A stretch of 64,000 bases of DNA from Dromaius novaehollandiae (lineage: Eukaryota > Chordata > Aves > Casuariiformes > Dromaiidae). The DNA is taken from assembly GCF_036370855.1 (NCBI RefSeq), contig NC_088108.1:7091448-7155447 (forward strand), given 5' to 3'. Position numbers and translations under genes: made by a program. Numbering within the stretch: the first letter of the stretch is position 1; every line of letters starts with the position of its first letter. The notes beneath the pieces are model-generated. The model saw nothing but the letters and a program-made list of their open reading frames with translations, did not search any database and was not told the DNA's origin. Shown here in pieces: positions 1 to 63,414 of this stretch.

Positions 1-381
1 CATACAAAAATAAGTAATGTTCCTGTCTACAATGGGCCAGTGAACATCAGAATTTAAGGAAACCAAACCAGGTGCCTCACTAATACTTTTACAGTCCAAT
101 TGCCAAAGGGTATCCACTGCAAATTCATGGTACTTTTGTTTTGTTCTCAGTCACTCTCTTGTCTCAGTTTCTATTTCAGAATGGTTCACATCACCCCACA
201 CGGTCAAAATAAAAAAGTATGCTTAAGCTATGCTCGTTGCCACTGAGACTAATAAGGGCTTAATCTAATGGTAATGAATTTGAGACAATGTACCAGGGAA
301 TTACAGTCAAACTGCCTACATTTTTTAATTCTCTCAACAGCTTCAACCAAAGTTCAAAAACTAAAAAAAATTCTCACATAC
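1..381. other. PICALM-like intron 6, partial
   Basis: AT-rich intronic sequence left of exon 6. I see no exon matching the next ANTH segment on the minus strand and no recognisable repeat. The small plus-strand open frame beginning near 288 runs over the real minus-strand exon 6 and has no family resemblance. Confidence 0.75.
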
Positions 382-493
382 CTAAAAGATTAATAATCCC
401 CTCATTGTATGCTGCAAAAAGTCTAATGGAATCTTTAAAGAGGAGCATAAAGGCAGCATTTATAACACCGTTTGTTAGTTCATTTGGATTTGC
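382..493 (-). CDS. PICALM-like coding exon 6
   Basis: The acceptor is TACACAG|GCAAAT and the donor is TTTTAG|GTATGT. It encodes ANPNELTNGVINAAFMLLFK and DSIRLFAAYNEGIINLL plus one base. This is the highly conserved part of the ANTH domain that precedes EKYFDM in PICALM. The EKYFDM exon is not visible in positions 1-381, so it must lie left of the window. The last residue encoded here is about 219. Confidence 0.92.
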
Positions 494-596
494 CTGTGTA
501 GAAAAGCAATGAGAAAGTAAATTAGTATTAAATAAAATAACCAAGATCTTGCTTCAAAATAAGAGTGTTACCTAACAATGAGCTTAATGTACTTAC
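494..596. other. PICALM-like introns 5, 4 and 3 (494-596, 691-868, 972-1803)
   Basis: Three short introns. The coordinates given are for the 103 bp intron 5; intron 4 is 178 bp (691-868) and intron 3 is 832 bp (972-1803). All have GT-AG ends and pyrimidine-rich acceptors on the minus strand. Intron 3 is AT-rich without a repeat or other structure I can name. Introns this short within one domain are consistent with a compact bird genome. Confidence 0.7.
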
Positions 597-690
597 ATCA
601 AAATCAAGGAGTGCATCAAGCTGATTCTGTATGATTGGAAGGGTTTTCACAAGCTTTTCAGCATTCATGGTTCTCATCACTCCATCTATC
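597..690 (-). CDS. PICALM-like coding exon 5
   Basis: The acceptor is CTCTGTAG|GATAG and the donor is TTTTGAT|GTAAGT. It encodes [18 protein letters not shown], then [13 protein letters not shown], after completing the glycine of exon 4. It is the counterpart of the [24 protein letters not shown] segment. About six changes in 31 codons make this the most divergent of the six exons. Confidence 0.92.
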
Positions 691-868
691 CTACAGAGCA
701 GGAAACAGGTTTACTGTTTACCAAGAAACTTCAGCACATTATGTTGTTTCAGCAATATTACATTATCTGCAGGGTCACAATCAATACCAACACATGACAA
801 GCTTAAGGACAACTGGTATTTTCTCCCCATATGAAAAACCCCAATGAAAGAAGCAGCAATAGTCTTAC

Positions 869-971
869 CCTCTTTTCATTTTGGTGAAGTCTACTGCTAC
901 AAGTCTATATGAAAGTGCTTTTTCATTCAAGTATCTGCTATACCGCCTGATGAAGGTAGACATATCATAGC
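869..971 (-). CDS. PICALM-like coding exon 4
   Basis: The acceptor is TTTTTTAG|GCTATG and the donor is AGAGG|GTAAGA. It encodes [19 protein letters not shown] followed by [16 protein letters not shown]. The first stretch is the strongly conserved ANTH segment. The second replaces the VSYRQVAFDFTKVKRG I recall for PICALM. Reading frame is intact across both junctions. Confidence 0.92.
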
Positions 972-1803
972 CTAAAAAATTAAGTGCTTATAAGGTTAGA
1001 CATTTTGAAGATGTACACTTTTAAAGCTTTTTCCGGTACTATTCTCTTATTTGTCCATTTCACATTAATCTGCATAAAAAGAGCACTTCACAGGCACATT
1101 CCAGAATCTTGAGCTTCACGGTTTTCACTCTGAGATGCAGTGTTACAGCTATATTCTTCCCAACTTGCTAAGACTAAGAAAGTATTCATGACAGTTGTAA
1201 GAGAAACTGCTTACAGCATATAAAATATTAGGCAATTACCAAGCAGCTCTTGCTATGTGTTCTAGAAATCACACTGGAAATATATTCCTGATAAAATGCT
1301 AAAGACTTCACTAACATAACTGCAATGCCCCAAAAACCACATAAAGACCTAAAAATAATTTCCACCACTGGCAAGTAATTGGAAGCCCTCTCAGAGACTT
1401 GAATGAGTTCTCTTTATCTATACAGCACATTCAGTTACCATGCCATGCACCTCAACAACTCATATTTACTCCTGAAACACTGAAATGCAATGGCAAAAAT
1501 AGATCAGTGTGCTAATATTCATCAGATTTATTCTAGGCACCTTAAGAGCTCACTTTTTTAATTTATAGCTCTGTAAGTGCACAATATATGTATTACAGGC
1601 AAGTTTCCAGCACTCAGCTGGGTAACTCAGCACCTCACTTTCCTTGTCTCTTGCATTTACTAACATTTCCAGTGCCTCATACAATATAAATTGTAATACC
1701 CTTTTCATATGACAGTAATTTGTCTCTTAGCATGAAGTGACGCAGGTGCTAACACTGAGCAAAAAAAGCAGTAGAGTTGTTTCCTTCAGCGAAACATCCT
1801 TAC

Positions 1804-1879
1804 CCTGCATGGCACTTTTGTCCAGGTAGTTATTAAGATTGAACAATGTGTTTCGGGATGCAAGATACTGGATAAAGCG
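1804..1879 (-). CDS. PICALM-like coding exon 3
   Basis: The acceptor is CCAACAG|CGC and the donor is CAGG|GTAAGG. It encodes RFIQYLASRNTLFNL, then NNYLDKSAMQ plus one base of the next glycine. The first half is identical to PICALM/SNAP91. The second half (NNYLDKSAMQG) differs from the SNFLDKSGLQG I recall for PICALM, part of the case for a separate paralog. The phase (0 in, 1 out) fits exons 2 and 4. Confidence 0.92.
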
Positions 1880-4800
1880 CTGTTGGTAAAGAAAAAGTTA
1901 AGTGTATCATTTTTGTTGTTTTGAGAGCTAAAACATTTAAGCATAGTACAAGTAATTGTTTACTAGTAATCTCCATTAATACAAATTGGTTACAAGACAA
2001 ATTAAAAAACCTGTAATGATGAGTTAAAATGCACAACTAGATATTTAGCAAAAATACAAATTTAGTTTAAATAAGATGACCTCAGTGCCCACAAATGAAA
2101 TACTAGTAATCCTAGAGGAAGCTGCTTAGGTTAACCTTGTTGCTTAGAAGAGACAAGCTAGAAAACAGAAAACAAAAATACCACCCAAGTTATCCAAGCT
2201 CCCAAAGAGTGGCTGCTGCAGAAGATAGAGATAAGCTTAGTTACAAAGTTTAAAGAGTAATTAGTTGTATAATGTTTCTAGAACTGTGGTGAATAAAAGC
2301 ACTGAAGTTGGTGTAGTCAGTCTAGGATGACAAATGCACTGAGCTGGTTAAACAACATTTAAGTTTTGACAAATAATAGCTGGCTCAGACATGAGCAAGA
2401 GTAAGAGACCACAAATCCAGATAGCAAGGTAGTTTTAAAAGTTTCTCTGCCACTCTTCCATAGGCATTATCTCCCATGATGGCAATTTCTAGACTTTCAT
2501 GAATCTTTACATGTATGTTTTAGTCCATAAAATAGCACTATGATTAGTAGGGCATATGGGGCTTGTTGCACCCTTTATCCGAGTTCCTCTGCTGCTACAG
2601 CAGGGAAGGCCCTATTCCTTCACTTTTTATGGTGGAATTTCAGGTGTTTGTCAGGTTTGGACTACAGTATGCTGCACAGAACTCATGCTTTTTCAGCCAG
2701 CCTCAGTATAGGGTCTGCTCTTTGGGAGTTGCAATGCAGGCTCAGCACAGTGACAGAAAAATTCTCCTCCTCTCTCAAGTAAGATTTAAACCAGAAGCAG
2801 TACTTTCACCTTTCCCAAAGTCCCTCTTCCAAGGGGCTCAGATGATTTCCCAACGTGTCATGTCCTACCTCATCAGTAATTTGACACCCATTTCCAGGCT
2901 ATAATAAGAGAGAGTTTTGACAAGTCTACAATTAACAGCTTTACTGCCAACAGTTCTGGCACTGCTTTAAATTCTTATTCTGTTTTTCAGGAAGTGTTTT
3001 ATCTGGTCTTTGTACATCTTATTATTGCATTCAAAGAGACATAGAAGAACAGAAACAGCTGCAAAATGATCTGGAACAGAACAGTGATATTCAGGAGGTG
3101 TATACAGATTTGAAATTTAGCTAGTATTCTGAATCACATTCTAGGAGGACCTAGGCTAACTATCATCCTCCAAATGCCAATCCAAAATGTTAACTAGGCT
3201 ACCATTTTGAAACACTCTCTGGATGAGTGTTCTTCCATTACACAGGGGAAGCATAGAGAGATTGGCCTTTCTGAATACCACTCTTTGTTTACGTAGTGAT
3301 GTGCAGAACATGTGCTAGATCTACTTCAAGAGTTTACATGAAGTTTTTTGATGAAATACGTTATGGATTTACAGAAGTATGTTTATTTCAGTGCTTCACC
3401 ATGGACTGTCAAATAACTCACCTAAAAAAAAGAAAAGATCCTGATCAATGTTCTCAGATTTGTTACCAATCACAAGGCAGAACTTGAACAGAGAGGTCAA
3501 GAGAAGAGCAATTTACCAAGAAGCAATGATTCCGATCAGTTAGAGGGAACTGTTCACTACTGCAATTGACGCACTACAGAAAGGGGACTATCCACCACTG
3601 CTGTTGCAATCCAGGGCTTACCCCTAAACAGGTTTTGCGTTACACAAAGCAGAGGCGTGAAGATGTTTAACCTCCTTCATCCCAAACTCACAAGAAACAG
3701 GTAGTCATGCTGAACAAGAATCTGCAAGGCAGCAATTGCTCAGACATCATTCTGACCTTCTGCTATATTTCCTTGCACTTAAAATAGGAGTGCAACAACT
3801 GATAAGTTTTTTTTTTCCTCTGTTAAAGAAAAAAAAGCCTTCCTTTAATATCTTACAAGAGTGAGAGGTACACTTGGGTTTCGTCTTTCCATCTGAAATC
3901 ACAGAAATAGTGTTCCAGCTACAGGAGTCCAGCAGGCATAAAGAAGTTTAAGCTTCAAATGCATCCATTCAAAACTGTGGAGCGCTCTAGGGACAGACAT
4001 AAAATCCAAATCTTTTCTTCTACTACAAAATGCTACAAGGACAAATGGATACTGACTGGTAGCCTATAACTCTAAGCTCTGAATTCTTGTTCTATGGTTC
4101 AGTTGTTGGCTTTTGCTTCTTTCAGACTTCAGTGGAGAGATACGAACTGTCTTTGAAGAAGAGACATCAAAATAGACATACTGATTTACGGTATTCAATT
4201 TAGCCTTATTGTTATTCTGAGCACTGAATTTCACTTCCCATTACTCTCCAATTTCAGCCTATTGTCTTTTTTTAACTACAATGTAAGCATGTAAATAACA
4301 TGGAGAAGTGTAACACGGAATACACTGTTTTATGGACCATTTCATTAAGTCACCAGAAATTTGGAGAAAGGCAGCAACATTAACTTTTCAGAGCAGTTTA
4401 AGGGCAGGAAGCAGTACCACTGAGAATTATCATTTCAGTATTACCAGTACCTACAATAAGTACTTGAAAGTTAAGAGAATGGTTATACACAAGAACTAAA
4501 CTGCTACTTGGTCAAGATAAAGTTTAGTTTTTAATTACAGGACTGTGTAAGAAAGACTACATTTCTAGTACCATGTGATTACATTTCTAAAACCACACTG
4601 AACATATGCACTGCTGAAATAATTTAAGTGAACTAAATACAACAGAAAACAGTTTCAGCTGAATGTAATGGCAGAAACGTATGACAGCTTAGCCTATTGG
4701 ACAAGGATTTTCAAGCCCAAATATTCCTTCCCCTTCCAATAAATATTCTTATCTGTTAATAGGTTGCCGGTACAGTTCAGTGCTAACAGGATTTTTGCTG

Positions 4801-5108
4801 TGCTTTTACTGATAATGAAGTAAAGCACATCAGAAGTTCTTCAAGTCTTTATTCCAGAAAGGCCAGTCTAGCATTCCCTTATAACCCAACCCTGACACCT
4901 GCAGTCAAACTGCAAACACTGAAATATTTCAGTATTGAAATAATCAAGCATTATTTCTTCTCTGGGGAAGTACTTCACAGACAATGATAGAGGGGGAAGA
5001 AAAAAAACTTTGAAAAAAAAATGGAGGTACACATTTCATGCTTCATAGATCAACTGAGACAATTTCTTAAAACATTGTCAGGGAGGCCTTAACAAAACTA
5101 TGCCTTAC
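1880..5108. other. PICALM-like intron 2
   Basis: A 3.2 kb AT-rich intron between exons 2 and 3, with short homopolymer runs only. Open frames near 2540-2904 and 3296-3487 show no domain, no good splice context and no resemblance to the gene. Nothing else is supported. Confidence 0.7.
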
Positions 5109-5251
5109 CTCATTTCCATACATCATGAGGTGGTGTGTTGTAATTAGAGCTTTGAACACTACAACCCAGCTACTGTTTGCAGTTCTCTCAAAAAGTGTGT
5201 CTGCCAACTGTGGAATATTCACATTCATTTCATTTGTGCACTGTATCAGAT
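5109..5251 (-). CDS. PICALM-like coding exon 2 (ANTH helices)
   Basis: The acceptor is TTTAG|ATCTG and the donor is GAG|GTAAGG. The split codon T|AT joins exon 1 to give HLDYLIQ, the expected family junction. The 47 complete codons include CTNEMNVNIPQLAD, SSWVVVFKALITTHHLM and YGNE, the core of the ANTH superhelix. CTNEMNVNIPQLAD matches PICALM better than SNAP91 (which has ATNETNVNIPQMAD). Small departures from PICALM occur in the LFERTANSS, FKALI and HLMMYG stretches. No frameshift or stop. Confidence 0.93.
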
Positions 5252-8219
5252 CTAAATTAAAGAAAAAAACGCATTACAATGAGACACATACTTAAGAGGA
5301 TAATCATGTTATTGTGCATTTTCACAGGAAGGATTCATACTGAAGTGTTAGCCCAATTATTTCTTTAACAAAGAGCTGAAATTATTTTACATTCTCTGCT
5401 TAAATTCACTGCATTTTACTGACAGACAGAGTATGAACTTCAAAGGCATTCCAACAATTTTACAGAGTTCCAAAACCTCATCAGTAAATAACCTGCTCCA
5501 GCAGAAACTCTAGCCCCAAATTACAGTCTGAAAGCCAGCATAATATTCTCAGCATCTGACTGCATAAAGCAACTCAATCTAACCAAAACTGAAAAGCAGA
5601 GAAGAGAAGAAAAGCTGACACACCTACATCGCATGAGATCAACAGGCAGGAAGCATCCTACAACCAGGATCTAAGACCAAGTACTGACATACATGACAGT
5701 AAGTGGGATACTACAAACCTGTGCTAAGCCTCTTTTCTATGGGATTTAAGAGAGAAAATCTGAGTCTACACTGCTTTCCACTTAGGTTGGTAATTATGTC
5801 AGTTTAGCTAAGTGTTTTGTCGTGGATCACAGCAGGTCTCGAGCTTCTGCATAAAAACTCTGTGTCAAAGACAGATTATAACTCAATAATAAATTATTAA
5901 CTTGTGAGGCCACAGACAAAGGCCTTCAAGCCTCTGCTTCAATATTTACTGGCACAAACCTAGAAGAGGCGCCAGCAGATACATGGGTAAAAAAAACTGC
6001 CTGAGAACAGTAGTTAAGGTACTTGCTGAGAAGAGAACAAAGTGGTAAATCCAGAACTGTTCTAAACCCCTCAAGACACCCCCTACTATTAGACATGTCT
6101 TCTCTTTGAGCTAAATTTGGCTCAGGTGTGATCAAAATATACCTTAGGGACTGGGCAAGACTTGTAAACAACAAAAAAAAAAGCTTCAAAAGCTTCCTTT
6201 GTGGCCAGGTATTTAAGGCAAGTTTCTGAGCAGCCTGTTAGCTGCAGAGCAGCATCACTGCTTACATGTTTTTTTTGTGTAAGTACTTGAAGAAGGCTAG
6301 CTACTTAGGAAGCTGGGCAACAACTGAATACTGAAATGTCAGCATCATTGAAATGACCAGCTCAGCTACCTATTAACCTCATCAGGCATGAGCAGAAGAC
6401 CACATTATCATAAGCGATTTAAACATAAATTTAGAGACTATGTATTGACAGTTCAGGACAGAATGCCTTATAGAAATACTGCACTTAACACATCTATTCT
6501 GGTGCACAGAATACATTATGTATATATCCTAATTATAACTGTTTAATAGGTACATAATTTAAAAAGTCCTATGATTAAGGCTCACTAATGTTTACTTTGA
6601 ATAACTAATAACCAGAAAAACTTCAGGAGTAAAGAATTTTAGATAATATTCTGCCTCAAGAAGATACTTTAAATAGAGTTTAAGAATTTACTAATTCACA
6701 CTGATGCCACAGGTTTCATAACACATAGGAAAAACGCAAGTTGGGATGAAAACCCTTATTAACAATACACAAAAATGTGGAATAACAGTACAAAGTGACA
6801 AGCCCTGAAAAAAAGTTTTAAGAAAGCTACATATCAAAAACTTATTGCTAAGTAGTATTAAAATATTTCACTGTACAAAAATAAAGATTCTCAGAAGTCG
6901 TGTTACTCATCACTCACAGCTGTATTGTTGTTAGATGCTGTGTCAAATTACAATCTTTAAAAAAAGTATTCTAAAATTTCCAAAGTCCAAACAGTGCATA
7001 AAGACTTACTGCTTCATAAAATGAAGCAAGTCCCAGTTCTCAAATTTATATATAGAAAAAAACTGAATTTTAATTCAACAGCCTCATTTACTGAATGAGA
7101 ACTTTGTTATGTCATTACTAAGTAAATCTCTCTACACACATTAGGGCAAATAAATTTTCCTAAATCCAATCAGTTTATATGCAAGCATTATAAAGACATT
7201 ACTGATAGAATTAGCTCAGTATTTTTCATATAACTGAAGACACTGTAACCAAAGAAATCTCACAGAATTGTTACAAGTCATAAAGGAATTCTCAACTTAC
7301 CAAAAAAAAAAAAAATCACACAACCACTACACTGAGCAATACCTATAACATTACCACTGTAGAAGTTACACTGATCTGTTGAAAGCAATATTTTTGCACA
7401 TTTAGTATGCTTTTCATCCACATGAGCACTGAGCAAGTCAAATATTTACTGAAAATATTCAGCATTAAGAGTGCTTTTTTAATAATGAATGAAATTGGGA
7501 GGGGAGATCTAGATTAAAAACAACCAATCTTCTGCTTTAAAAGAGCAAAACAGTAGCCAAACTAATTTAACTCACATTTTGCTAGAACATCTTACGGAGA
7601 AAGTTCAGTCTTCTCGTGCTCCCTCAGCTAAGGTTTACCAGCAGATGTTCCAGTAAATGTTAAACAGATGCTGAACACCTGGGAGATGTCTGACACATCT
7701 GACACCGATATAAAAATCTGTTCTTACAGTGTTGCTCAATGATCCTTTGTGATAGAAACCCTATTGTTAGCAACTATATCAAATGTTGTAACTAATCACC
7801 TCTCTAAACCCTACCTCAATTAAAAACAAAACAAAAAACACACACACGCAGTTTTGGCTCATCTTGCCATCATAATGGTTTATTACTACAGAAAAGTCAT
7901 TCAGATGTCAGTCTTCAAAACTGCTAACTGCCCCCTGCTCTGGTACTCAAGACTAAAAGATGACTTCTGCCATGTGACAGTGACAAAGTGGAGGGTGAGA
8001 AAACTGGTGCCTTTGAGAAGTTCGTACATCATCCTTATTCCTGAAGTGTGGCTCCATGCGACTGATGAGTACAGTTCCAGCAGTTCTGTAACAGTGCTAG
8101 CAAGGTTTTCCAGGATGAACTTCTTACCTGTGTAATATTGGAGCCTGGCCATTTTAGCAGGTATGAAAAAGGTAATATTTCAACTTAGGACACCTCAGAG
8201 ACCAATTTGAGTTCTGCTT

Positions 8220-8235
8220 GAGGTCAGAGGACCTC
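8220..8235. promoter_or_regulatory. GAGGTC palindrome, nuclear-receptor-like inverted repeat
   Basis: GAGGTC-AGAG-GACCTC is a 6 bp perfect inverted repeat containing an AGGTCA half-site. More GAGGTC copies follow within 120 bp (near 8292 and 8334). The resemblance to nuclear-receptor half-sites is seen in the sequence; function is only a guess. Confidence 0.2.
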
Positions 8236-9027
8236 AGTGAGGTGCAAGTTCCACACACTCTAGGTAATCAAGACACACGCTGGCTCCTCTGAGGTCAACT
8301 TGTATTGAAGGCACTTATCACTTCACACCACTGAGGTCTGTGGTTCCAGACCCTCCCTGAATGCACAAGCACAAGTCACAGTTAGCCAATACCGCGAAAC
8401 ATCTGCTCGGGAAAGAAAAATATCCCTGAAATACTAATTTAAGAAAAAACACTAGGGGGGAAAAAACTCAGTGCACTTTATAGGCTAAAACTTGTCTTTC
8501 ATATTGTAAAAATCTAAAGAGACTCTTTAATAAGGCTACTCAAAGAAAAATTTTAGTAGTAGTAACAGTGCTATTTAAAGCTAGCATATTGGAATTATAG
8601 TATTCGAGATATGTAAAAAAAAACGCAACTATCATCTCACTGATTCTTTTAAATCTGCAACAGGAATATTTACATAGAGACAGCAGTATGGATTTGTAAA
8701 AGCTGGAAGTAGAAGAGGAAAAGACCATTACCACCATGTATGTGGAAGTATAACTGAACACATACACACCTGAGACACTGACAGCTGGGCAGCTATAGTA
8801 TGGATTACTTTGAAAAAGATATTGGCAGCAAAGAATGGAATAAATTGCATAGGGCAAGTGATGCTTATTTTCTTATCACAGTACTTCTGTGAACGCTTCA
8901 CAACTCCCAAGCACTTTGCCAGCTACCTAGAGGAATCATTTCAACTGCAAGTGAAATTGTGCTGCTATTTCTAGAATGGAATTCGGAAACTTGTTAACAG
9001 CACGCAGCAAAATCAAACAGCTTTAAG

Positions 9028-9127
9028 TCAGAGGAGTACTGCAGAGGAATTCAAGCAGCCTGGCAGAGCTGTGGAAATCTCACTGCCTAGAAGAGTACTC
9101 AGAACTTCTCTTCCACAGCTCCTCTGA
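9028..9127. repeat. Interrupted inverted repeat (17 bp arms)
   Basis: The right arm TTCCACAGCTCCTCTGA (9111-9127) is the exact reverse complement of TCAGAGGAG (9028-9036) joined to GCTGTGGAA (9068-9076). The left arm is split by 31 bp. The inner pair alone gives an 11 bp perfect stem (9066-9076 with 9111-9121) around a 34-base loop. It lies in PICALM-like intron 1 and would be transcribed. Confidence 0.6.
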
Positions 9128-12100
9128 AACACTGGCACATCAGCTATGAAGCCAGACGTCTCTTCAGAGAAGAGCATGAATAAATCCAGATATTAAAAAA
9201 AAAAAAAGAAAAAAAAATCAGTTTTTTTGAAATTTCTCAGCCAATCACTGACAAAACTGACACTTTTAAATATCAGGAGTTATTTCTTTCTTGGTTCATA
9301 AATACATCTTTTAAGAGAACTGCATATATCAGTTAAGACAATCATAATTGCTTAATATTCCTGTATTTCTTCCATTTTCTCACAGAACAGACTGCTGTAA
9401 GAGAGGCAGATGCAAGCATTCTAAGAGTGGTTACCTTAACCCCAGCAGTCTGTAGAAAATGGCATTCTTACTTGGAAGTTGTACTGCAAACTAAAGAGAA
9501 GAACCATATACACACATTTTCTCAATGCAGCCTAAGGAATGTAGCGATTCTTGCTGGAGGCTTAATTAAGAGATAGTACCTGACTGATACAAACATATGC
9601 TCTTCTACTGCAGATCTGAGAGCAATCTTTTAATTTATATAAGAGCTAAATCTGTACCATCTTACAGAGTTATATTTACTAGAAGAAAGGTAATTCAGCT
9701 ATCCTGTTCTACTCTCTCCCTACTAAACAAGGATACAAGATGGCCCATAAAGCTTTTTCAAAAGCTTTAAGTAATTGCTAAATAAAAGATTACTTATAAA
9801 TTCTGACAACACTAATTCTAATTTTTTTCTTGGTTCAAGTCAAATTGCCTCAATTACAGTACTGAAAAGCTTCACGGTTTAATAAAGAGCTTCAAATTAA
9901 AGAGAACTGCCTTACTGCCCCTGGATGAGTCTAAGAGCATTTGTTTGTGCTGTTTCCCAACTTGTCTATCTCTAAAAACCACACTGCATCAGAATGCACC
10001 AGACAGTCATGAGCTCTAGCTGCCAAGAGTACGAATGGGCAGACATACAAGAACATCCCAAAAATGTGACAGTCAATTTGACATTACTGGCAAAAGTTTA
10101 AATCCACAATGATTTGTCAGAGACCTGAACTTTCACCCACACAAAGAATGAAGCCTGATTTTGTTACTTAACACAACTTTACAGTACCTGAATTACCACT
10201 TTTGACAGGATTTCCAAAGCCTGTATATGCACAGTTGCTTTAAGTTTTAATGAGCAATGTTAACTACTTTCCTTCCCATTCACTTCTTAACTGGGCTGTA
10301 TGAAAATTAAGCAGGAGTTGCTTGCTCTTCTTTATTACTGTGTTCATTTAAAAGTTCAGAATAAAATCAGTTTTGTTTTGCTAAATTTTGGTCTACACAT
10401 AAGTCTAGTCTGCCAGTTACCAGCTTTGCCACAGCTTTAATTTGTTCATTTTTATTATAGCTTTTCAGCAGTTAGCCAAGAAAATATCTATATCTATAGA
10501 TATCTCACCAAAAGAAGCATCTAACCCCATTCTACTGGGACCCAAAATTAGGAGGCAGAAAAACCACCACCATATAACATTTTATTTTATCCTAGAATAT
10601 TACAAAATATTACAGAAATAGATTTGTTGATTTATTTAGGACACTGACCTATTTAAAGAAAAATATTCCTATTACTTAAGTTTTGGGGGTTGTACTCGCT
10701 CTTAAAGAAAGTGTGACTATATTACCCAGAAATTAGTAGCCAGAAAAACTCCTGGACTCTGGAATACCAGTTCACGCAGTGCATGTGTAATGTCTTCCCC
10801 ATTGATACTCATATTGTAATTTTAAGCTTTCCTTATAACTAAGGAAATATGGCAAAGAGAGGATTTTAGAAATTAATCTGAACTGAGCACACTGACTGAA
10901 ATTCCCACACGTTCCCAGATGCAACTGTAGCAACTCTCAAGAAAATGTTCTTGGTCAAGTTTTTTTTTGAGCAGCAATTACAAGTAATACCAGATGGTGC
11001 AGCATTTTTAATGATACACACGTGTGGGGACCAAGGTGCAACTTGCAGGATTAGATCCAAGTTATGTTTTAATTTATATTTTACTTAACTTAGAAAGCGT
11101 TTTCACTGTACCTTTGAAAATGCACTGTGTTATTGTTTCAGAGATTACAGTGTAAACTAGTATCATACCTGCTTGCATTTAATACGGGCAAGTTCTGTGT
11201 ACAGGTGTACAAGTAAAAAAAAATTAGCAAGTGCCACACAAAGGCTTTAATCTAGCTATTTCAGTGGATGTTTGAAAAGAAGCCTGGATATGCTCAACAA
11301 ACATTTTCTAGTGTTCATTGGGATTTTTTTTAAGCCCCTTACAGAGATATTTGTAGTACCACATTTCAGACCCCTTTTTCTCCCACCTCATCAAAATGTT
11401 GCTCCATTTCAGATAAGCAGTTAGAATAACATGCTTTTTATTCGTCTTGGACAAAAGTCAGAGAAAGTGAATTATACCAAAACACAGAACTCATTCAGCA
11501 CAGGAGGTCCCTTCAGGAGACTGACAGCTCTAAACAGGTTTGTATCAAGAGATATCCAAAGGAATTTGATAGTCACAACCTAATCTCTATTTATGTTAAT
11601 CTCAAATCACACAGTTTTTCCAGTTTTCCATTTTCTTATTTTGTGAGGTTATATTAGGTGACATTATCTTAAGAGTATCTTTCAGACAGTACGCTACTTC
11701 TGGTAAGCTTCAGAAACTTGTAAGCTATTGAGCAAGCTACCACCACATTCTGGCTTCCTGTTATGTTGCCATTTCTGGACTTCAGGGTTACCTCATTAGG
11801 TTGCTCTACCACAGGCAGAAAATAACACAAGATAAACTAATGGTGCAATGAAAGTAGTACCTTAAAGGAAAAAGAACAATCAAGGGTAAGCTACCCAGTC
11901 TTAACACTTTTAATATCAATAGAGTAGCTGCAGTATTTACCATTGTAGCTGGCTTCCAGTCATTAGGATCAATAGCAAGTGAAATATATTTGCTGTTTTT
12001 TAATTTTTAACTATTTGATCCATCTCAAAGGCTCGCATACAAGATGCCCGTACTAACAGATGAGTGCCACAGAATCAGAGCGCCGAACTATCCTCAGATA

Positions 12101-12952
12101 ACTTAACACAGTATGCCTGTTCTGAGAAGTTAAAACAGCAGACTTAACACCATCAACTTGAAAGAGTCCTGCACTGCTAGCAGCCTGCTCCCTTGACTTT
12201 GAAGAAACCAACATACAGTTTCATGTTTTACTTCCTTCCTCTCCTTAACCAAAACACACACGCTACCATCACTTTTAATAGACAGCGACAGGGTATACCA
12301 CCCAACATGCAAGCTTTGAAGCATTCAATACAATTTTGAGCAGTCAAATGATACCAACAGTGACTTCAGCTGCCAGTCAGTTATTAAAAACTGACACGAA
12401 GCAACAGTACTGACGCTGGGCAGACTCTGGGGGTAGCCATTTACATTCTTTGACATACAGGAAGGAGTTTTAACATATTAACTGTTTAAGTATACGGGCA
12501 GCAACCTGCTCCCATCTTGGAGAGATGCACTGATCTACTTCTCCCCTTCCTTTAGCTCACCTCAGGTGCTTGATCAAAGGTGTAAGACAGAAAGCATGGT
12601 ATTTTGGGAACTGTTAGAAGTGCGCAAACAGCTGGCCTCCACCAGACGGACAGAAGAGCACTCAAGAACAAAACCTCTCGCTCACTACAATAATACCACA
12701 GCACTTAATCCACCTTTGCCCCAGGTGCAGGATTAATAAGCACTACTATATCTAGAGCGCACAGTTAAGAAACACTTCTCGGGAAGAGGAGTTCACAACG
12801 TTGGGAAATGCTCCTGCACTTCTCCCCCCCGGCTGGACGGGGCGTTACGCACCTCCCGCTCCCACGTGCAGGAGGCTCCCGGCAAACTCGGGAGCCGCGG
12901 CCGGCCCCGGCCCCCCCGCGCAGGCCGCCCCTCGCCGCCCGGCCCTACTCAC

Positions 12953-13082
12953 AGTCCAGGTGCTTCTTCTTGGGGCCCATCACCTCGTGGGTCGTGGCCT
13001 TGCAGACGGCCTTGGCGACGGCCGAGCCGGTGACACTGTGCTGCGCCGCCGTGATGCGGTCGGTGATGGACTGCCCCGACAT
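12953..13082 (-). CDS. PICALM-like coding exon 1 (start codon, PIP2-binding site)
   Basis: The ATG is at 13080-13082 in the context GGAAGATGT, and translation begins [20 protein letters not shown], the invariant start of the AP180/CALM family. The exon encodes 43 codons plus one base and ends at an ACT|GTGAGT donor after KKKHLD. The phosphoinositide-binding residues known from CALM are all present: K28 and the cluster K38, K39, K40 and H41 in GPKKKH. Membrane binding should therefore be intact. Differences from PICALM as I remember it: I for L at 6, A for S at 23, A for T at 25, V for I at 34. Some of these (A at 23 and 25, V at 34) are closer to SNAP91. The start lies inside the CpG island, about 370-470 bp inside the likely transcription start. 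Confidence 0.93.
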
Positions 13083-13452
13083 CTTCCGCCCCCGCGGCGC
13101 TGCCTACCCGCCCGCCGCCTCCCGCTCCCGCTCCGCGGCAAGGCCGGGGCGCCGGCGGCCGCTGCCCCGCGAGCCCAGCGGAGCCCCCGCCGCCCTCCCG
13201 CCGAGGAGGGAGCCCGCAGCGCCCCGCCGGCCCCCCCGGCGGCACCGGCAGCGGGCGCCGCCTCAGCCCGGCTCCGCTCGCCCCCGCCGCGGGGCTCGTC
13301 CCCGGCGCCCTCCGCGCCGCTCCCTGGCGGCGAGGCGGCTCCCGCCCCGCCGGCTCGGCTCGGAGGAAGGCGGCCGCCGCTCGGCCGGCCCCGCTCTGCC
13401 TCCGTCCCCTGGGCGCCGCTCCGGCTTTTCCTTTCACATTTCCACTCCCAGA

Positions 13453-13464
13453 CAAAATGGCGGC
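13453..13464 (-). promoter_or_regulatory. YY1-type site GCCGCCATTTTG
   Basis: CAAAATGGCGGC on the plus strand reads GCCGCCATTTTG on the minus strand, the classic YY1 motif found just downstream of the start site in many TATA-less promoters. Position and orientation suit the PICALM-like promoter. The ATG inside it starts a plus-strand open frame that I regard as spurious. Confidence 0.5.
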
Positions 13465-13493
13465 GGCGCGGCCACGGCGTCAGGTGACCGCGC

Positions 13494-13550
13494 GCCCGCC
13501 CCGCCCCGCCCCGCCCCGCCCCGCCCCGGCGCTGCCCCGCCCCGCCCGGC
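13494..13550. promoter_or_regulatory. GC-box (Sp1-type) array
   Basis: CCCCG repeated without a break from about 13498 to 13530, then a further cluster to 13550. It reads as overlapping GGGGCGGGGC Sp/KLF boxes on the minus strand. It sits where a core promoter would be expected, 410-470 bp upstream of the start codon. The array is also a simple pentamer repeat, so length variation between individuals is likely. Confidence 0.65.
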
Positions 13551-16075
13551 GCGCGAGGCGGCCGTTGGGAGCAGCCGCAGCCTTCTGCCGGTCGGTGCCC
13601 TGCGCGGGGCCGCTGTGGGACGGCTGCGCCTCTCGCGGGGCCCGTTGGGTTTTGGAGGCTCTTGTCCACGTCCTGCACGTTAAAAGCAGTCCGCAAAGAC
13701 CTAGCAAGTCGGGTGGCGGAGGCGAGCCGCACCTTGGGCCTCGGCTCCACACCGCCAGCCGGCGTGGGCAAGCCGCGCCACGGTGCTCGCGGCCGCGCCA
13801 GGGTGGAAGGCTGCGGTGGATGTTCAGTGTTGCAGGAAGCTTCTGTGGGGCCTTCGAAGCGCTGCAGACCTGTTCGCCATGAGCAAAACGTCAACCTCTT
13901 CCTTTGCCCCTTCCCCACCATCTTCAGCTTTTTGTTCTCTGGATAGATCTAAAAGAAAAAGAAAAGAGCTGGTCTGCTGGCGTTATGTTTCCTGTGGTAA
14001 GAGGAGCACCCCAGGAGTACGAGCGCTGGCAAGCACTGCCAAAGTGATGGAAGAGAGGAGCTAATGCAACGTTTTATCGCTCGTTTTTGTGCACCAAGTT
14101 TTCTTATTTAGCCTTGTGTAGCAGCATTCGCTTCTATGGGATTGCAGGGAAGGACCTGCAAAAGGGCTTTATGCATGGCTTTTCAGCATCTCTTGGTGGT
14201 TACAGAGAAAGAAGAAAAGTCCCTCAAAAAGCTGTTTTTCTCTTGCAGACTTTGTGTTTTATTTTCAGAAGCAACATCTATTAAAAGAATAAGTGCAACC
14301 TCCCTTGTTGAATCCATTGCATGTTCAAATGAGGAAATTAAATTTCTTTTGAAGTTCCTCCCTGTAATTGTGTTGTATGCGTACTCCTATATTAGAGTAT
14401 TGAAAAGCTTCACAAGAAACTTCTTTATCGGGGCACAATTGTATCGGGGAATCTGAAAACCTGTTTAACCGCAACCACATTGACCTGGTTTTGAGGATAT
14501 GGGTCTTGTTTATTTAAAATCACAACAAAGAACCAGGCAGGACAGGAGCTGGGTGACGGACCTAACTAAAGAAGGGAGGGGGGAAATGGTAGATTGCTAT
14601 ACACATATATTCACTCATTTGCTATTTTCCTGAGAACAAACAAGAAAGCAGTTGCAGCTTTTGCCAAGTGTGATAGTGGTTTCTGTGATATGGAGACCTG
14701 CCCATTGGAGCTGGACTGTTACCAACAATATGTTTCAAACAACTACCAGTCATATGTTAATGATATCTTGTGAGGAGAATTAAACAAACAGTTTAGAAAT
14801 GATAGGCTCTATAAGTCACTAGCAATTCCCTTGATCCTTCCAGGCTGGCTGTTTTCGTACCAGCTCATTAGGTGGCTAAAAATATGACAGAGGTTTAAAG
14901 AGAACTACAGAAATGAGCAGGGACTTCTCCCTAGCAGAACTGTTCTGGAGCAGAAATTCAGGAGTCCAGTTTGTGGGATCTGGCTCACTTAACGGGGGTC
15001 AGCTGGGTTTGATTTTAAAAATACTCTCCAGGAAGCTCTCTTTTCTTCGCATCCACATAAATGGCAGCTCTTACAACGATAGGAAGAGACAGAAAAAGCA
15101 GTTTTGAAGAAACCTTCTTACTCAGAACTTGCTCCTCTGCCTATTACACTGACAACCAGTGACTATATATGCTCTCTGACTTCAGTGAAAGTGAATTTGA
15201 GCTTCCAGGCCAAAATGAGAAATTTCCCTTTTTCATCATCCAGCAGAGTGAGGAAAGGTGGGTTTTGCAATAAAATGGAGTCCAATTGTATCGCTAATAT
15301 GACAGCACATTACTATAAATTGCGCATCACAGAATAACTGTTATAATTTCAATTTATGATTCCACTCTGAATAGGACACCCATCCCCATCCTGTAAAGTA
15401 AATGTTCATTTCTTATATTCTCTGATGTTCCATGCATCCATCCAAATGGGTGTCGTGACATTGTTATTCTTTTGGCATTACGATTTCCAAAGATGGTGTT
15501 CCCCGAATGACAATGAGGAAGTTTCACTGTTACTGTAAGAATCATTAATTGTTTTCCAGCCAGGTCTTGAGGCTCCAGTGAGGACACGTTCAATTGTACA
15601 AGACCCTGCATGAAAACTTAGGAAGAAACATTCCTTCTCCCTCAAGTGTTACATTCTCAGTTAGTGTCTTCAAACCTGATTTTATCTTTAAGATAGGTAT
15701 CAATTTATTCTTGAATATGTGCATAGAGTAACATATACTACAGAAAAGCGTGACAGTGCAGTGGAAATATTAGCAGTCCTGTGATCTGGGGTGGAGAATA
15801 TTCTGAGTGAAGGATTTCCATAACCCTAAGGGCATAAATACATTAAAACATGGTCACTGCTATTAAAATATTGAACACTTCCTGTACCAGAAAATGTTAC
15901 GGCATCTTTAGCTCTGCTGGCAGCAGGCAATTTCTACCTGCTTTATTTTTGCCTTAAGACTTGTTGTTTCTGGAAAAAATAATCTTGAATCTTCAAAGCC
16001 TGAGGAAACATCAAAACAGTAAGAAAAGAGGAGATGGAAAGATTAAATAAGCATTATAAAGATGTCTGAATCTCT

Positions 16076-35647: not shown

Positions 35648-35764
35648 TTAAACTTTAGATTGCCTCTCATCTGTCCATTCCTGCTTAGTGTTCTGTAAAG
35701 CTTGAGTCTTCTGCTCGTCTACCTGGACGTAGTCCACTCTCTGCTCCTCAGAGAGAAAAGGTTT
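35648..35764 (-). CDS. GAB3: GAB3 exon 10 (SHP2 site 2, stop codon)
   Basis: The acceptor is TCCCACAG|AAACCT. It encodes KPFLSEEQRVDYVQVDEQKT then QALQNTKQEWTDERQSKV and the stop TAA (35648-35650). VDYVQVDEQKTQAL is the highly conserved C-terminal SHP2-binding motif of all GAB proteins. The C-terminus DERQSKV matches human GAB3 as I remember it. 3' UTR follows toward lower coordinates. Confidence 0.96.
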   Translation of the reverse strand, partial: KPFLSEEQRVDYVQVDEQKTQALQNTKQEWTDERQSKV

Positions 35765-36790
35765 CTGTGGGATAGAGAGGAAAAAAACAATATATTCATT
35801 TCAGGATGAAAAGGGATGCTAGTGAAACTTGGCTTGATTTTCTGTTTTCGCTTTCCCTTATTCTTTGGTTGCTTCACTTCACCTTGAAGCTCACAGTGAC
35901 ATCAGCTGACAAAAGCATTGCTTTACAGCCTGCTTTAGACATAATTATCCATCTGTCACCCTGTCACTCAGCCCAGCACAGTGAGAGAGGGAAACATGCT
36001 GTTCTGGCTATTTCCATACGGATAATCATTCTCTTGTCATCCAAATTATCCTGCTGCAGGGATAACCTACCAGCATTTTAACCAAAGGGAAGCTTTAAAT
36101 TAAAGGAGGCTTAGCAGTCTCTTGCCTCCAAGAATATTAACTGATGGAGAAAATGATATGCAGGATGCAAAACTTCCATGATGGCCCAGACAGACAGTAG
36201 TTCTCTGCTTTGCAGAGTATTGCATTAGTTACCTTGACCAGTGCTCCGGTAGATTGTAAACAATTTGGAACAAGGATTGTATTTTCTCAGAGTTGCTAAA
36301 GAAATTGAAATGCTTTTGGTGACGCAAGAATAAAGATGCACATTTTACCATGGTACAAGAGATGGTACATTTTTACCCTGCAGATTTATCACGGGCTATA
36401 AACTTACTACTGCAGACAGATTTGGAGGGGGAAAACTAGCAGGAAAGGGTTTGTGGAGACTCAATAAAAATGGAAGAGCATGCAGAGATCCTGCAAGCAC
36501 CAACAAGCTTGCCCACAAGCCCTTACCGCTGCACACCCAAGGGCAGTCCCGTGCCCTCTGCTGAGCTCACGCTGATGGCATCACTAGGACTCGTGCTAAG
36601 GACACCTTGTCGTCCCTTCTAATCGTGCTTTTATGTTGTTAATCTTGAGCCTGTTATGAATGCAATCAGCTGGAAACATGACTGGCTTCATCGTACTTAG
36701 GGCACCTAACGAAGTGTGAATCTTGGTTGTGTTTTCCTCCCAGCAGACAAAAAGATAGGAGGCTATGGGGTTTTCAGAGATGACTCATAC
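35765..36790. other. GAB3: GAB3 introns 9, 8, 7 and 6 (35765-36790, 36905-38154, 38258-39965, 40048-41220)
   Basis: Four introns of about 1.0, 1.25, 1.7 and 1.2 kb; the coordinates given are for intron 9. Sequence is AT-rich to mixed, with no repeat or transcript feature I can name. Open frames near 39064-39503 and 40589-41003 occur on both strands without recognisable protein content. Confidence 0.7.
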
Positions 36791-36904
36791 CTTCTGTACA
36801 GGGGATGGGGAAGCAGAATTAAAATCCAATGCTAAGTAATCAAGGTTAGATTTCCTTGTCCATGGAAAAGCACCACTGTATGGAGATGTTGCCTGTCTGT
36901 GTTC
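36791..36904 (-). CDS. GAB3: GAB3 exon 9 (SHP2 site 1)
   Basis: The acceptor is CCTGACAG|GAACAC and the donor is CAGAAG|GTATGA. It is a symmetric phase-0 exon of 38 codons: EHRQATSPYSGAFPWTRKSN then LDYLALDFNSASPSPVQK. LDYLALDF is the first of the two tyrosine motifs that together engage the tandem SH2 domains of SHP2. Because it is in phase 0 at both ends, skipping it would remove this motif without a frameshift. Confidence 0.95.
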
Positions 36905-38154
36905 CTGTCAGGAAAGAAGAGAAACGTTTAATGCTCTTAAACCATGATCCTAAAGGGAAAGACGACACTCTGAGGTGCCAGACTCATCTGGCAAAAGGCA
37001 AATGAGGAAAGTCAGCACCCACGTAATTTTCTGTGCCAAGGGTATATTTATTGACTAACCACAGGATAACACTAATTGGTTGTGGGATGGTACAAAGAAA
37101 TTCAGGAAGCCTTATTCTCCTGGTAATTATAGCTGAACAAGCAAACTGGGCTGATTCTCATTCTGATTTATAAAATCAGGAGGGATTTGTGCCCAGCTTT
37201 CCAAAACAAACCTTTGGAAGGCTCATATTTACAGTGGATGCCATCTAAGCCATCAGCCCTCTAGGAATTTGAAGAAATTATGATAATTCTGTTCATATCT
37301 ATCAAGTGAATATTAATGTCAGGAAAATCACATATGACCACATATAGGTAGAAGGCTTTAATTGACTGGAAAATCAAATAGTGAGTGGTTACACCTGGAG
37401 CTGCCTCGGTGAGCAGATTTGGAATCTAGCAGAGGTATGGGTTAAAATTTGAAACTATGGTTTGTGGTCAGTGGTCAGTTTTGCAATACACTTGTACAGC
37501 CATTGCCGCTGAGCTTTGGCTCTGGAGCCAGATTTGTAGACACTGACTCAGATCAAGGGTTTTGAGATCCATTTCCACCTGAAATTCAAAAGAAACTGAG
37601 ATTCTGGTCTTTTGCAAGACATGGCTAAAGAGTGAATGAAGAAAAGGAAGCCACAAAGCCAGATGTTCTTCTTTCATGGGATGGGAAGTGGGGTTAGTGC
37701 CACCAGCCAAAGCAGAAGCAATAGGAGACTTTAATGGAGGTTCTGTTTCTGCACAATATTTGGTGTGTTTCTTTAGGAAGTGCACTAACGGCTTTCTGTC
37801 ATTTCCTAGGAGATTTTGCAGGGCACACTTTTAAAAGGTGAAAAGATTTAATTTTCCTTTGCCTTAATGAGTTCTCATGTAAATATGGCTGATCCCTGTG
37901 ATCTCTTGGAACTGCTCAGCAACATTCGTGGGTGAACAGCTGAGTTCTGCAGAGCAGAAGAAGGGCTCCCCTTATCTCTCTGTAAATTGGACCCAGTGTC
38001 TTTGGTTTAAAACCATTTCATCATTTTTTTTTTAAACAGAAGGCAAAGGACAAACCTCCTCAACATTTTTTCTTAGAAAACAAACTTCTGCATTCTCCAT
38101 CAGTGTGACAGAGCAGAATAAAGCAAAGGATGGCTGTGTGAAAATGAAGATTAC

Positions 38155-38257
38155 CATATGAATGTAACTTTCTTCCTCTTCTCCGGAAACTGAATTGGCA
38201 AATATTCTTGCTGAATTAATACCGTCTCTTTCTGGTGAGATAAAGCTCATTCGATTG
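38155..38257 (-). CDS. GAB3: GAB3 exon 8 (third YxxM)
   Basis: The acceptor is TCATAG|CAATCG and the donor is CATATG|GTAATC. It completes a Tyr codon with exon 7 and encodes NRMSFISPERDGINSARIFA then NSVSGEEEESYIHM. ESYIHM is the third YxxM motif; human has YIEM. The donor GTAATC departs from consensus at +5 (C for G), so this is the weakest splice site of the gene and a place to look for alternative splicing. Confidence 0.93.
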
Positions 38258-39965
38258 CTATGAAGAAAAACACAGGAGAGGTTAAGGAAGCATCTTACAG
38301 ATGCTCTGAAATGAAGCCAAAGCCTGACACAGTCCGTATGGTGAATAAACTCACACTAATGCTGCAGCCTTTATGGAGAGGATGTCCAAAAATGTTTGTT
38401 AGTTCTAAAGAAAGTGTGTTATAGTCCTATGAGTGCCTTGGTTGATTTTTTTCTGGGCTTTTCTTGATGTTCTAAAAGTTTGCCATCTCTGGCATGACAG
38501 AAAGCATAAACCATCAGAGCAATTCTCCAGCAAGGGCACAGACAGAGGCAGACATCGTTCCTCTGGGTAATATGTGCTGATGGAGCAGTTACTTTGTTGT
38601 GCGGGTATCCACATTTTGGAGACTGATGTGAATTAATCAGCTGCTGGAGGTGCATGCGGAGGAACGTGGCTGGCTTTGAACACAGTATAAACACATGCTA
38701 TCTGTGCCGTGGAAATGGCTGTAGCTCAGCCGTTTTACACGGAAATTTCTTCCACTAACACAGCTGTCAGAAGCATATCCTGAGTAAATTATTGCAGGCT
38801 GGCACAGTGGAGTTAGTTATTAAGAAATTAAATAGTTACTTCATGCAGAATGAATAGTAATCCCTTTTGCTTTATTAGTTCTGGGCATACTTCTTTTTTA
38901 GTTTTGTTAATGTAAAACATACAGACTCCCTCAGAGCTCGTTATTCTTCAAGACTCTGTACTGTGTCATCATTAATTAACCGTGGTGCTCTAGCAGGGAT
39001 GCTCGGGAGGCAGACCAGCGGGTTTTCCTAATAAGCAACACGCGGCAGCCAGTGCCCAAGGGGTTAACCAGCTTCAGACTGTGGGGCTGGAAGAGGACTC
39101 TGCAATTGAGGAATTGCCTGTCGCTGACATCTTGACAGCTCGGGTGCCTTTTGCACGCCAAAGGCTACCTGGTCAGGGGGAGAGGACAGCTCTGCTTGGC
39201 ACAGATACAGGGCAGGAGGTTTGCGAGGATTTCTGGCTTCGTATACACATTTCCGTGGGACGGGCTCTGCTGTCACACTTTCCCCAGGAGCTGGAGGCTC
39301 CCCGCGTCCCTGTGGCCCTCGCCCGGCTCATGGCTGCCCCAGGGCTGATTCTTCCACTGCCTTTGGAGCCCGGCACTACAGTTTCTTCGCATTACCTGGG
39401 CTCTGGGACCAAAAGCATTTGTTTTACCCCACAACTAGTTTCCAGTGACAAAAGGTCACAACAACAGATAAAGCCTGAATTTGCATGTGGCAGGGCAGAA
39501 TAGAAACACAGTCAACAAGTTAGGCAAATCTTTATCTTAACTAGCTCTCCTTTGCTATAGAAATTTGCAGGAACAAAAACGGCTCTATCTTTGAAAAAAA
39601 TGAAGGCATGTGAAGCTTTTAACTGCCACAGTAGCCATGCAGATTAGCTTCAGCCTTTTCAAAAGGAACCTTCAAAAGAGCCTATCTGAATTTTGAGAAA
39701 ACCCTAATTTGCAAGAGATGCAAAACACAGCACTCCTGACAGCACCATATGATGCTGAACACACTGAATCTGTCTGTCTTTAAAGGGATCCTTACTTTTT
39801 AGAGACAGCAAAAGCCTTGGAGATGCTGGAAGGAGTCCTGTGGAATTTTTGTTTGTGGACTTTGCCAGGAAACTATTTCTTGTGGAATGTGATAAATTAG
39901 TTTTAACTCCATGCCACAATGTTAATGCTTAAAAGATTGGAATGGCAGGTTTCTTGTTGACTTAC

Positions 39966-40047
39966 TAAGGCACAGTCCACATCCTGGTCACGGCAGCATG
40001 CTCCCGGATTGTGGAGAGGTTTCTCAGGTCCAGTGGAGGAGGCCGTG
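39966..40047 (-). CDS. GAB3: GAB3 exon 7
   Basis: The acceptor is TACTTGCAG|CACGG and the donor is GTGCCTTA|GTAAGTC. With the split codon T|CA it encodes SRPPPLDLRNLSTIREHAAV then TRMWTVP, matching human SRPPPLDLRNLSIIREHASL. The exon is 82 bp, both ends split codons, and the frame is not the one that gives the longest open stretch here, so it was placed from family knowledge. Confidence 0.93.
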
Positions 40048-41220
40048 CTGCAAGTAGATACAAAAGGAAGCAAATTTACAAAAGGACTTACTAAGAGCTC
40101 AAGAAAAGTACCCATTTCTCAGAAAAATACAGTTTTATATTAACAGCAAGAAACTAAACAGTGTATTTCATACAGCACAATTGATATAACCAAGAGAGAA
40201 ATCAGTAAAAAATGTCCACTTCTATCAGCTCTTTAAAGCAAAGTCCCTTGTTTGTCCTAAAACAACAGAAAAAATGCAATGGGCAATAGGAGAGCAGAAT
40301 CTGCCATGAGAACTATGTCCTTGCCTCAAATCTTCAAGAGAAGCCTGTTCGGCCTACGGGTCAAGACAGAGCTTTGGGCTGTCCTCTAAACCCAAAGGTC
40401 CCACATGCGGAGATGAAGATCTTTCCCCTCACCAATCAACGCACATTTCCCACCCATTTCTCAAAAGCCTCTAAGAAAGGACTTGAACCTGCTTTGCTTC
40501 CCCCTCAGTGGTCTGAATTTCTTCCCCCACCCCACAGAAGTATTTCCTGAACTGATTTCTCTGTCGCCCTGTAGCCCAGAGAGCTTCACTATAGGCTGGG
40601 CTTAGGCAATGGCTCCTCTGCAAAGCTGAATTTCATTCCCAGTATATCCTCTGGCAGTGCAACTCTCAAGAGATTTTGGAGGTGCCATGGGAAGTGGGAG
40701 CAGAAAATTATCACCAGTAAAAGCATCTGCAGGAAATTCCTAATTAAACCAAGACAGCTGCACCTACCAAACAGAGATTTAACCAGCAGACCACACAACA
40801 AGTCTGAGGATTCGTGTGTTTGGACATCCTGTCCCTGGAACGTCAGGGAGCTGGTGAGATAGCAGTGCACAGCCAGCGCAGTTGCAGGATTTTTTTTGCT
40901 CTCTCTCTGAGGTTTTATCTGTTTGGCTGTCTGCAATCAGTGTATGTGCAGGGCGAGTGGCAGGGTGAATATGAACACCCCTGCACCACGCTAATGCAGT
41001 CACAGGCTCTCAGACTACAAAAGTAGGCACAGCCGCTCTTTCTCTGCTTGCAGATGACCCTGCAGACGTAGCCTACTATGTTACAGCACTAAAAGCCACT
41101 AAACCGCAATTCAATCTCCTCTCTAGAGCGGGAAACATGTTACAACGTGCCAAGGACACTATCAAAGGAGGTCACCGGTGTCCCCCTTGGCTTCCAACTG
41201 CTCATTAGGTCTAGCCTTAC

Positions 41221-41476
41221 ATTTCCTACGAGGCTTAAGGTCTCGGTTCACCGGCGGGGGCTCCAGGTCCGAGGGAAGCTCAGGCAGGGGGCTGGTGAGT
41301 TTTTCAGTGCTGACGACAGGGAAAGTAAACGTGGCTGATCCTGGGCTCATGGGAATGTAGCCGTCAGGCGAGCAGTCGGAGCCGGGGATGGACGGCGAGG
41401 TGCTGGGGCGCATGGGCACGTAGCTGTCCTCTGTGCTGTCTGATGTGGTCGAGTAGAGCGGGGAGAATCGACAGGG
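41221..41476 (-). CDS. GAB3: GAB3 exon 6 (two YxxM motifs and SH3 ligand)
   Basis: The acceptor is CTTCTGAAG|CCCTGT and the donor is AGGAAAT|GTAAGG. It encodes PCRFSPLYSTTSDSTEDSYV and so on, with EDSYVPM and DGYIPM as p85 SH2 ligands. LPSDLEPPPVNRDLKPRRK contains the PxxxRxxKP-type ligand for the GRB2/GADS C-terminal SH3 domain. Between DGYIPMSPGS and SPLPELP there is a stretch, ATFTFPVVSTEKLT, that I remember as shorter in human GAB3. The frame runs on past the donor to a stop in the intron, so intron retention would truncate the protein. Confidence 0.95.
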
Positions 41477-42753: not shown

Positions 42754-42809
42754 CAAATTCAAGCTAAGCCTCTTATCCCGGCTTCTTAAAGAACTGCCTT
42801 CCATGTCTG
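42754..42809 (-). CDS. GAB3: GAB3 exon 5 (short exon)
   Basis: The acceptor is ATTGCAG|CAGACA and the donor is AATTTG|GTAAGT. With the split codon it encodes ADMEGSSLRSRDKRLSLNL, the counterpart of human ADVEGQSLRHRDKRLSLNL. It is 56 bp long, so it was found only by expecting the segment between exons 4 and 6. The frame fits both neighbours. Confidence 0.93.
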
Positions 42810-43080
42810 CTGCAATATAAAAACAGTGATTAAAAATTTGATAAGGCAGTGAAACCTTAAGGAAATAATTGAGTAAAGCGTATGGCTCTAAAATAACCAG
42901 AGCTTTATAAAGACCTCAAATTCCTTATTATTTACCCTAAATGAGGAAATCCAATGAAACTTAAGACCAGAACCAACTTAGTAGCATTTCAAGAGCAATT
43001 ACATCCATTTTAAATATGATGAATCCAAGAAACATGCTCATGTACAATCCCGTTGTAAATTATGCTTCCTATAATCACGA

Positions 43081-43215
43081 GCAACTGGGGAGAAAGACTG
43101 GTGCAGAGGGGAGAGCAAACAGCTAAGCAGACACAGAATTTGAATCCAGCTTCTGTTCTGGTTGCAGGACCTCTGAACACCCCTTTCTGTTTTTCCATCT
43201 GTCAAATTCAGGGAA
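43081..43215. mobile_element. Possible ancient MIR-like SINE
   Basis: ACAGCTAAGCAGACACAG and GAATTTGAATCCAGC resemble the MIR core (ACAGCTAG...GATTCGAACCCAG). Similarity is by eye and weak. Confidence 0.2.
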
Positions 43216-43682: not shown

Positions 43683-43740
43683 TATGTATATATAAATATA
43701 TATATATGCACGTACATATACATACATACATAAATATATA
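43683..43740. repeat. (TA)n / (CATA)n simple repeat
   Basis: TATATATA tract followed by CATACATACATA and more TA. Common unstable simple repeat in GAB3 intron 4. Confidence 0.85.
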
Positions 43741-43895
43741 TTTGTATCCATGCTTAAAATTACCATCCTTCTTTTGTGGAAAATGCTTTTCTTTGGAGAA
43801 AATGGCTTGTCTGTGGTTCTACAGAGCCTGTCCTTGGGAATGCCATAGAAAACCCTGTAACCCTGTTAGTACAGTCCACACTCCCACTGAGGTCT

Positions 43896-63400: not shown

Positions 63401-63414
63401 GGGCCGGGCCGGGC

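Follow-up and report, generated by a model that had tools for sequence, protein, structure and literature searches.

The window analysed here, 64,000 nucleotides of Dromaius novaehollandiae DNA (C11:7091448-7155447; C-labels denote contigs of this one genome, assembled to 1.468 Gb in 271 contigs), contains the 5' part of a third gene of the CALM/AP180 family of clathrin adaptors, whose members take part in budding off membrane vesicles; it is located beside GAB3 and distinct from both PICALM and SNAP91. We interpret this gene, with a probability of about 0.87, as an ohnolog of PICALM that arose by an ancient block duplication. The block SYTL2-PICALM-GAB2 would have been duplicated to give SYTLx-third CALM gene-GAB3, where SYTLx is a synaptotagmin-like gene; both blocks are preserved here with their genes in the same order. 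The strongest support for this reading comes from gene order: the two paralog blocks are collinear, and the tree places the duplication before the split of birds and mammals. We infer that the block duplication took place within 2R, the whole-genome duplications of vertebrates.

Three family loci in one genome

All 22 matches reported for a PICALM query against the genome (E up to 0.1; 25 candidates scored) fall into three loci, on C1, C3 and C11, which are PICALM, SNAP91 and the third CALM gene, respectively. The ANTH domain of C1 PICALM differs from mammal PICALM at two of 289 residues (I34V and N160S) and that of C3 SNAP91 differs from the human SNAP91 reference also at two (287/289 identical), whereas 31 ANTH residues separate the third CALM gene from mammal PICALM (258/289 identical). 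Within the genome, it shows 31/289 ANTH differences from C1 PICALM and 57/289 from C3 SNAP91, with 51 between the latter two; its identity to human SNAP91 is 231/289. The initial annotation, made from the window alone, had reported roughly 25 changes relative to PICALM, had judged the gene too divergent for a PICALM ortholog and had proposed a search for a separate PICALM in the same genome. The count in the window segment is exactly 25 of 219 residues, the separate gene exists on C1, and the difference between 2/289 and 31/289 bears out the judgement.

That the gene could be this species' PICALM ortholog, evolving fast, would fit the observations that PICALM is its closest relative of solved structure and that 194 of 219 residues in the window segment are identical. 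It is refuted by the second, near-identical PICALM on C1, which shares its stretch of contig with SYTL2, and joining the two is rejected by full-length trees (approximately unbiased [AU] test, p 0.0004 and 0.001), so we give this explanation practically no credence. Orthology to SNAP91 is likewise ruled out: a separate SNAP91 is present on C3, and the SNAP91 clade excludes the third CALM gene.

A search of the genome for the ANTH family yielded 13 matches, eight of them in the three loci and five on C19, C17 and C14. Those on C19 and C17 are presumably HIP1 and HIP1R; the one at C14:3105031-3105345 (minus strand) is weak (27.9 bits) and lies within an open frame of 240 amino acids. At C1:212213171-212213082 (minus strand), 3' of C1 PICALM, a stretch ending in DPFAELSLQDFL resembles the C-terminus of SNAP91 (50% over 30 residues, E 7e-4), which suggests that C1 PICALM may have an alternative, SNAP91-like last exon. 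An exon of this kind was also sought for the third CALM gene and was not found.

Paralogous gene order around PICALM and the third CALM gene

The third CALM gene lies beside GAB3 and SYTLx, while PICALM lies near SYTL2 and GAB2. On C11 the order is SYTLx (7.03M), the third CALM gene (7.076-7.105M) and GAB3 (7.127-7.192M); on C1 it is SYTL2 (212.10M), PICALM (212.21-212.28M) and GAB2 (214.58-214.70M). Because three paralogous pairs (SYTL, PICALM/third CALM and GAB) stand in register, the arrangement points to an old block duplication. The identity of GAB3, named as the neighbour in the initial annotation, was confirmed by nine tblastn matches with 54-92% identity to human GAB3, which surpass those of GAB1 and GAB2 wherever the latter match; GAB1 is located on C4.

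SYTLx (C11:7031692-7039329, plus strand) lies beyond the 3' end of the third CALM gene. Of its 50 matches in the genome, the closest is the locus at C1:212.10M, some 106 kb away from the final PICALM exon candidate; weaker ones include loci on C23, at C11:20.36M, at C1:126.3M and at C3:67.7M. A tree of the SYTL C2B domain places SYTLx beside SYTL2 (support 77/82) and outside the group formed by SYTL2 of this genome and human SYTL2 (99/96), and joins the C11:20.36M locus with SYTL4 (88/86). We give this tree modest weight because it comprises only 71 columns; the remaining SYTL loci are named provisionally.

Phylogeny and sequence divergence

In full-length trees the PICALM clade excludes the third CALM gene, with support of 97/99 when fly LAP is included and 99/99 when it is not, and grouping of the third CALM gene with C1 PICALM is rejected (AU p 0.00043 and 0.001). 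The position outside the PICALM ortholog clade, which the initial annotation had predicted, is thereby upheld. It had proposed a tree of ANTH domains including fish sequences; our ANTH tree, made up of sequences from this genome, mammals and fly, points in the same direction and is not significant by itself. Without C1 residues 1-44, the ANTH-only tree gives the PICALM clade a support of 80/86 (AU p 0.057); without LAP the fork is open, with AU p 0.044 against grouping with C1 PICALM. Rooted with LAP, the third CALM gene and PICALM are joined with 72/79 (ANTH-only) and 79/91 (full-length), while the two SNAP91 rows group with 99/96 to 100/100 to the exclusion of the third CALM gene. The ANTH terminal branch of the third CALM gene is 0.074 changes per site.

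Divergence from PICALM is also considerable at synonymous sites and in the tail. Over codons 45-289, the method of Nei and Gojobori (NG86) gives a rate of non-synonymous substitutions (dN) of 0.070 and a rate of synonymous ones (dS) of 2.29, the latter near saturation, and hence a dN/dS of about 0.03. The tails of the third CALM gene and PICALM are 46% identical, compared with 90% for the tails of C1 and human PICALM. These values, dS and tail identity, speak against a fast-evolving segmental duplicate of PICALM specific to this lineage, as do the flanking genes, which are old paralogs of genes near PICALM, and the S160 change of C1 PICALM, which the third CALM gene does not have. What such a recent duplicate has in its favour is the ANTH-only AU test with LAP, which does not quite exclude it (the corresponding p without LAP is below 0.05), and V34, common to the third CALM gene and C1 PICALM; on balance we consider it very improbable.

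Several points weigh against an ohnolog of PICALM or limit the evidence for it. The orientations of the SYTL and GAB genes are flipped between the two blocks, so that local inversions are required. The evidence comes from one genome, whose genes the trees compare with mammal/human and fly LAP sequences; the human rows other than the PICALM ANTH domain are provisional reference sequences, the C1 and C3 tails consist of tblastn pieces, and long branches were flagged in the full-length trees. In the ANTH-only tree the third CALM gene is outside C1 and mammal PICALM with a PICALM clade of only 73/85 and AU p 0.066; because of these values the ANTH domain alone leaves the tree unsettled, and the full-length data are decisive on the position outside the PICALM clade. 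With the LAP root, sisterhood to SNAP91 or a place outside both genes is less likely and not rejected (AU p 0.094-0.139). At eight ANTH sites the third CALM gene has the SNAP91 state where both PICALMs share another, and since LAP is split three to three at these sites (state of the third CALM gene at 23, 182 and 268, that of PICALM at 78, 185 and 276, neither at two), these sites point to neither state as ancestral. V34 is found in both the third CALM gene and C1 PICALM, unlike mammal PICALM, and SNAP91 also has it. Finally, exon ends in the gene model were set by hand at GT/AG sites with PICALM as a guide, from genomic sequence alone.

The eight SNAP91-like sites and the AU values with the LAP root are also what would favour a third ancient paralog that is not the sister of PICALM, having split before PICALM and SNAP91 separated or together with SNAP91. 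Against it stand 34 ANTH sites at which the third CALM gene agrees with PICALM and not with SNAP91, the SYTL/GAB block in common with PICALM, and the joining with PICALM in both LAP-rooted trees; we therefore regard it as unlikely, although less so than a recent duplicate. The SNAP91-like residues listed in the initial annotation were A23, A25 and V34: the first two hold, but V34 is no evidence for likeness to SNAP91 because C1 PICALM carries it too.

Gene model and coding potential

The six window exons have GT donors, AG acceptors and fitting phases, and encode an open frame of 219 amino acids plus one nucleotide, in agreement with the intact ANTH segment free of frame damage in the initial annotation. 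The segment matches the Pfam ANTH domain PF07651 with 187.7 bits (cut-off 21.5; E 2.8e-55), and the nearest solved structures in a PDB search are PICALM chains (e.g. 1hf8, 7jxv and 3zyk; E about 4e-130). Extended beyond the window, the full model comprises 20 coding exons on the minus strand of C11 (7104529-7076350), with an open frame of 665 residues and a stop; all 19 introns have GT/AG ends, and a 31-nt microexon matches NLGIGNGTTK of PICALM. Coding exons 1-9 equal those of C1 PICALM in length and phase. A retrocopy is ruled out, coding exons 1-8 being equal in length in the third CALM gene, PICALM and SNAP91. The features are listed in Table 1.

Table 1. Features of the third CALM/AP180-family gene and its surroundings (window positions unless a contig is given)
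Feature	Position	Strand	Remarks
Third CALM gene, coding exon 1	12953-13082	-	Encodes residues 1-43 plus the first base of codon 44; covers the amphipathic-helix region and the residues of the PIP2 site
Third CALM gene, coding exon 2	5109-5251	-	
Third CALM gene, coding exon 3	1804-1879	-	
Third CALM gene, coding exon 4	869-971	-	
Third CALM gene, coding exon 5	597-690	-	
Third CALM gene, coding exon 6	382-493	-	
Third CALM gene, 14 more coding exons	C11:7090717-7076350	-	Beyond window
CpG island	12751-14000	.	Exon 1 and upstream; CpG observed/expected 0.91-1.05 in four 500-base windows
GAB3	35651-55392	-	Syntenic neighbour, same strand; PH-domain exon match 55392-55081; last match ends 35651

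The CpG island over exon 1 is the probable promoter of the third CALM gene. A decaying pseudogene could be argued from the fact that the gene is known here from genomic sequence, and from the length of its ANTH end branch, which however spans all the time since the duplication. The 665 open codons in 20 exons, the microexon, GT/AG at every exon end, the low dN/dS, the CpG island and the retention of all binding residues named below make decay highly improbable.

The first residues of GAB3 are matched at C11:7191604-7191675, beyond the window. A CTTCT pentanucleotide array (37 copies, 97% matches) occupies window positions 60216-60404, apparently within the first intron of GAB3. Short GC-rich tandem arrays are present at 13495-13547 and 63407-63454 (CCCGC; GGCCGGGCGAGGA), the former about 400 bases upstream of the start codon of the third CALM gene. 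A search of the window against Rfam gave zero matches, and a CR1-type tail repeat, which would have marked a bird genome, was sought without a match; viral and GTDB contigs contained no relatives of the third CALM gene, as expected for an animal gene.

Conserved membrane end and altered tail

Residues K28, K38, K39, K40 and H41, which we take to form the site for phosphatidylinositol 4,5-bisphosphate (PIP2), are invariant in the third CALM gene, PICALM, SNAP91 and LAP, as the initial annotation had stated for the window segment. Residues 1-18, described for CALM as a curvature-sensing amphipathic helix in PMC4406947, show one conservative change (L6I). L219 and M244, whose mutation in CALM abolishes VAMP binding according to PMC3669311, are both present.

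The tail has FDAVF, SLANLVGNLG, one C-terminal NPF and four DLF/DIF/ELF motifs, and lacks DPF and DLL. The PICALM tail has FESVF, two NPF and single DPF, DLL and DIF motifs; DPF, DLL and both NPF are visible in the C1 PICALM pieces. The third CALM gene resembles PICALM in ANTH fold and sequence, in the residues for PIP2, VAMP and the membrane helix, in SLANLVGNLG and in the C-terminal NPF, and differs from it in 31 ANTH changes, a divergent tail, the missing DPF and DLL, one NPF instead of two and more DLF/DIF/ELF motifs. With SNAP91 (AP180) it shares the family, the ANTH domain, the lengths of coding exons 1-8 and tail motifs of DLF type; differences are the lower ANTH identity, the length (665 residues versus 907 in SNAP91) and the separate locus.

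From these residues, the N-terminal amphipathic helix is predicted to insert into the membrane, the lysine-rich patch would bind PIP2, and the ANTH helices would bind small R-SNAREs (VAMPs), leading to VAMP sorting and tuning of coated-pit size, while the tail may contact clathrin and AP2 through a motif set unlike that of PICALM. The protein would then act in endocytosis as an adaptor that sorts R-SNAREs, tunes curvature and contacts clathrin and AP2 in an altered way; since the tail motif set differs, it may be specialised for a tissue or a cargo.

Distribution and possible loss in mammals

GAB3 is retained in mammals, which are not known to have SYTL genes beyond SYTL1-5. The vertebrate ancestor may have had the third CALM gene and a sixth SYTL gene side by side; both would survive here, whereas mammals would have lost both, perhaps through a single deletion next to GAB3, so that ubiquitous R-SNARE sorting fell to PICALM alone, and the retained copy would combine the membrane end of CALM with a rewired clathrin/AP2 tail. 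We put this scenario forward tentatively, at somewhat less than even odds. According to PMC3669311, the family has two members in mammals, the ubiquitous CALM and the neuronal AP180, and a single one in most organisms; going by this statement, and not by a mammal genome, no mammalian copy of the third CALM gene is known.

More than one PICALM-like gene is also found in fish: two are described from zebrafish (PMC4199285), and the eel genes are named Picalm, Picalm-like, Picalma and Picalmb (PMC8834532). These could be orthologs of the third CALM gene or teleost-specific duplicates of PICALM. Salmon studies assign picalm genes to chromosomes 11 and 7 (PMC6377724, PMC12784476), and a table in PMC2374702 includes PICALM and SNAP91; these sources have no further bearing on the gene. 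Among the titles and abstracts listed by literature searches, none concerns this gene; subscription papers and gene databases were outside the scope, and NCBI or Ensembl may already carry the gene with a "-like" name.

PICALM is a known risk gene for Alzheimer's disease. A third conserved member of the family would provide a natural comparison, with the same membrane and SNARE contacts and a different clathrin/AP2 tail. Through it one could ask which of the tail motifs are important, whether PICALM loss is better tolerated in species that have the third CALM gene, and whether the dependence of mammals on PICALM results from the loss of a backup.

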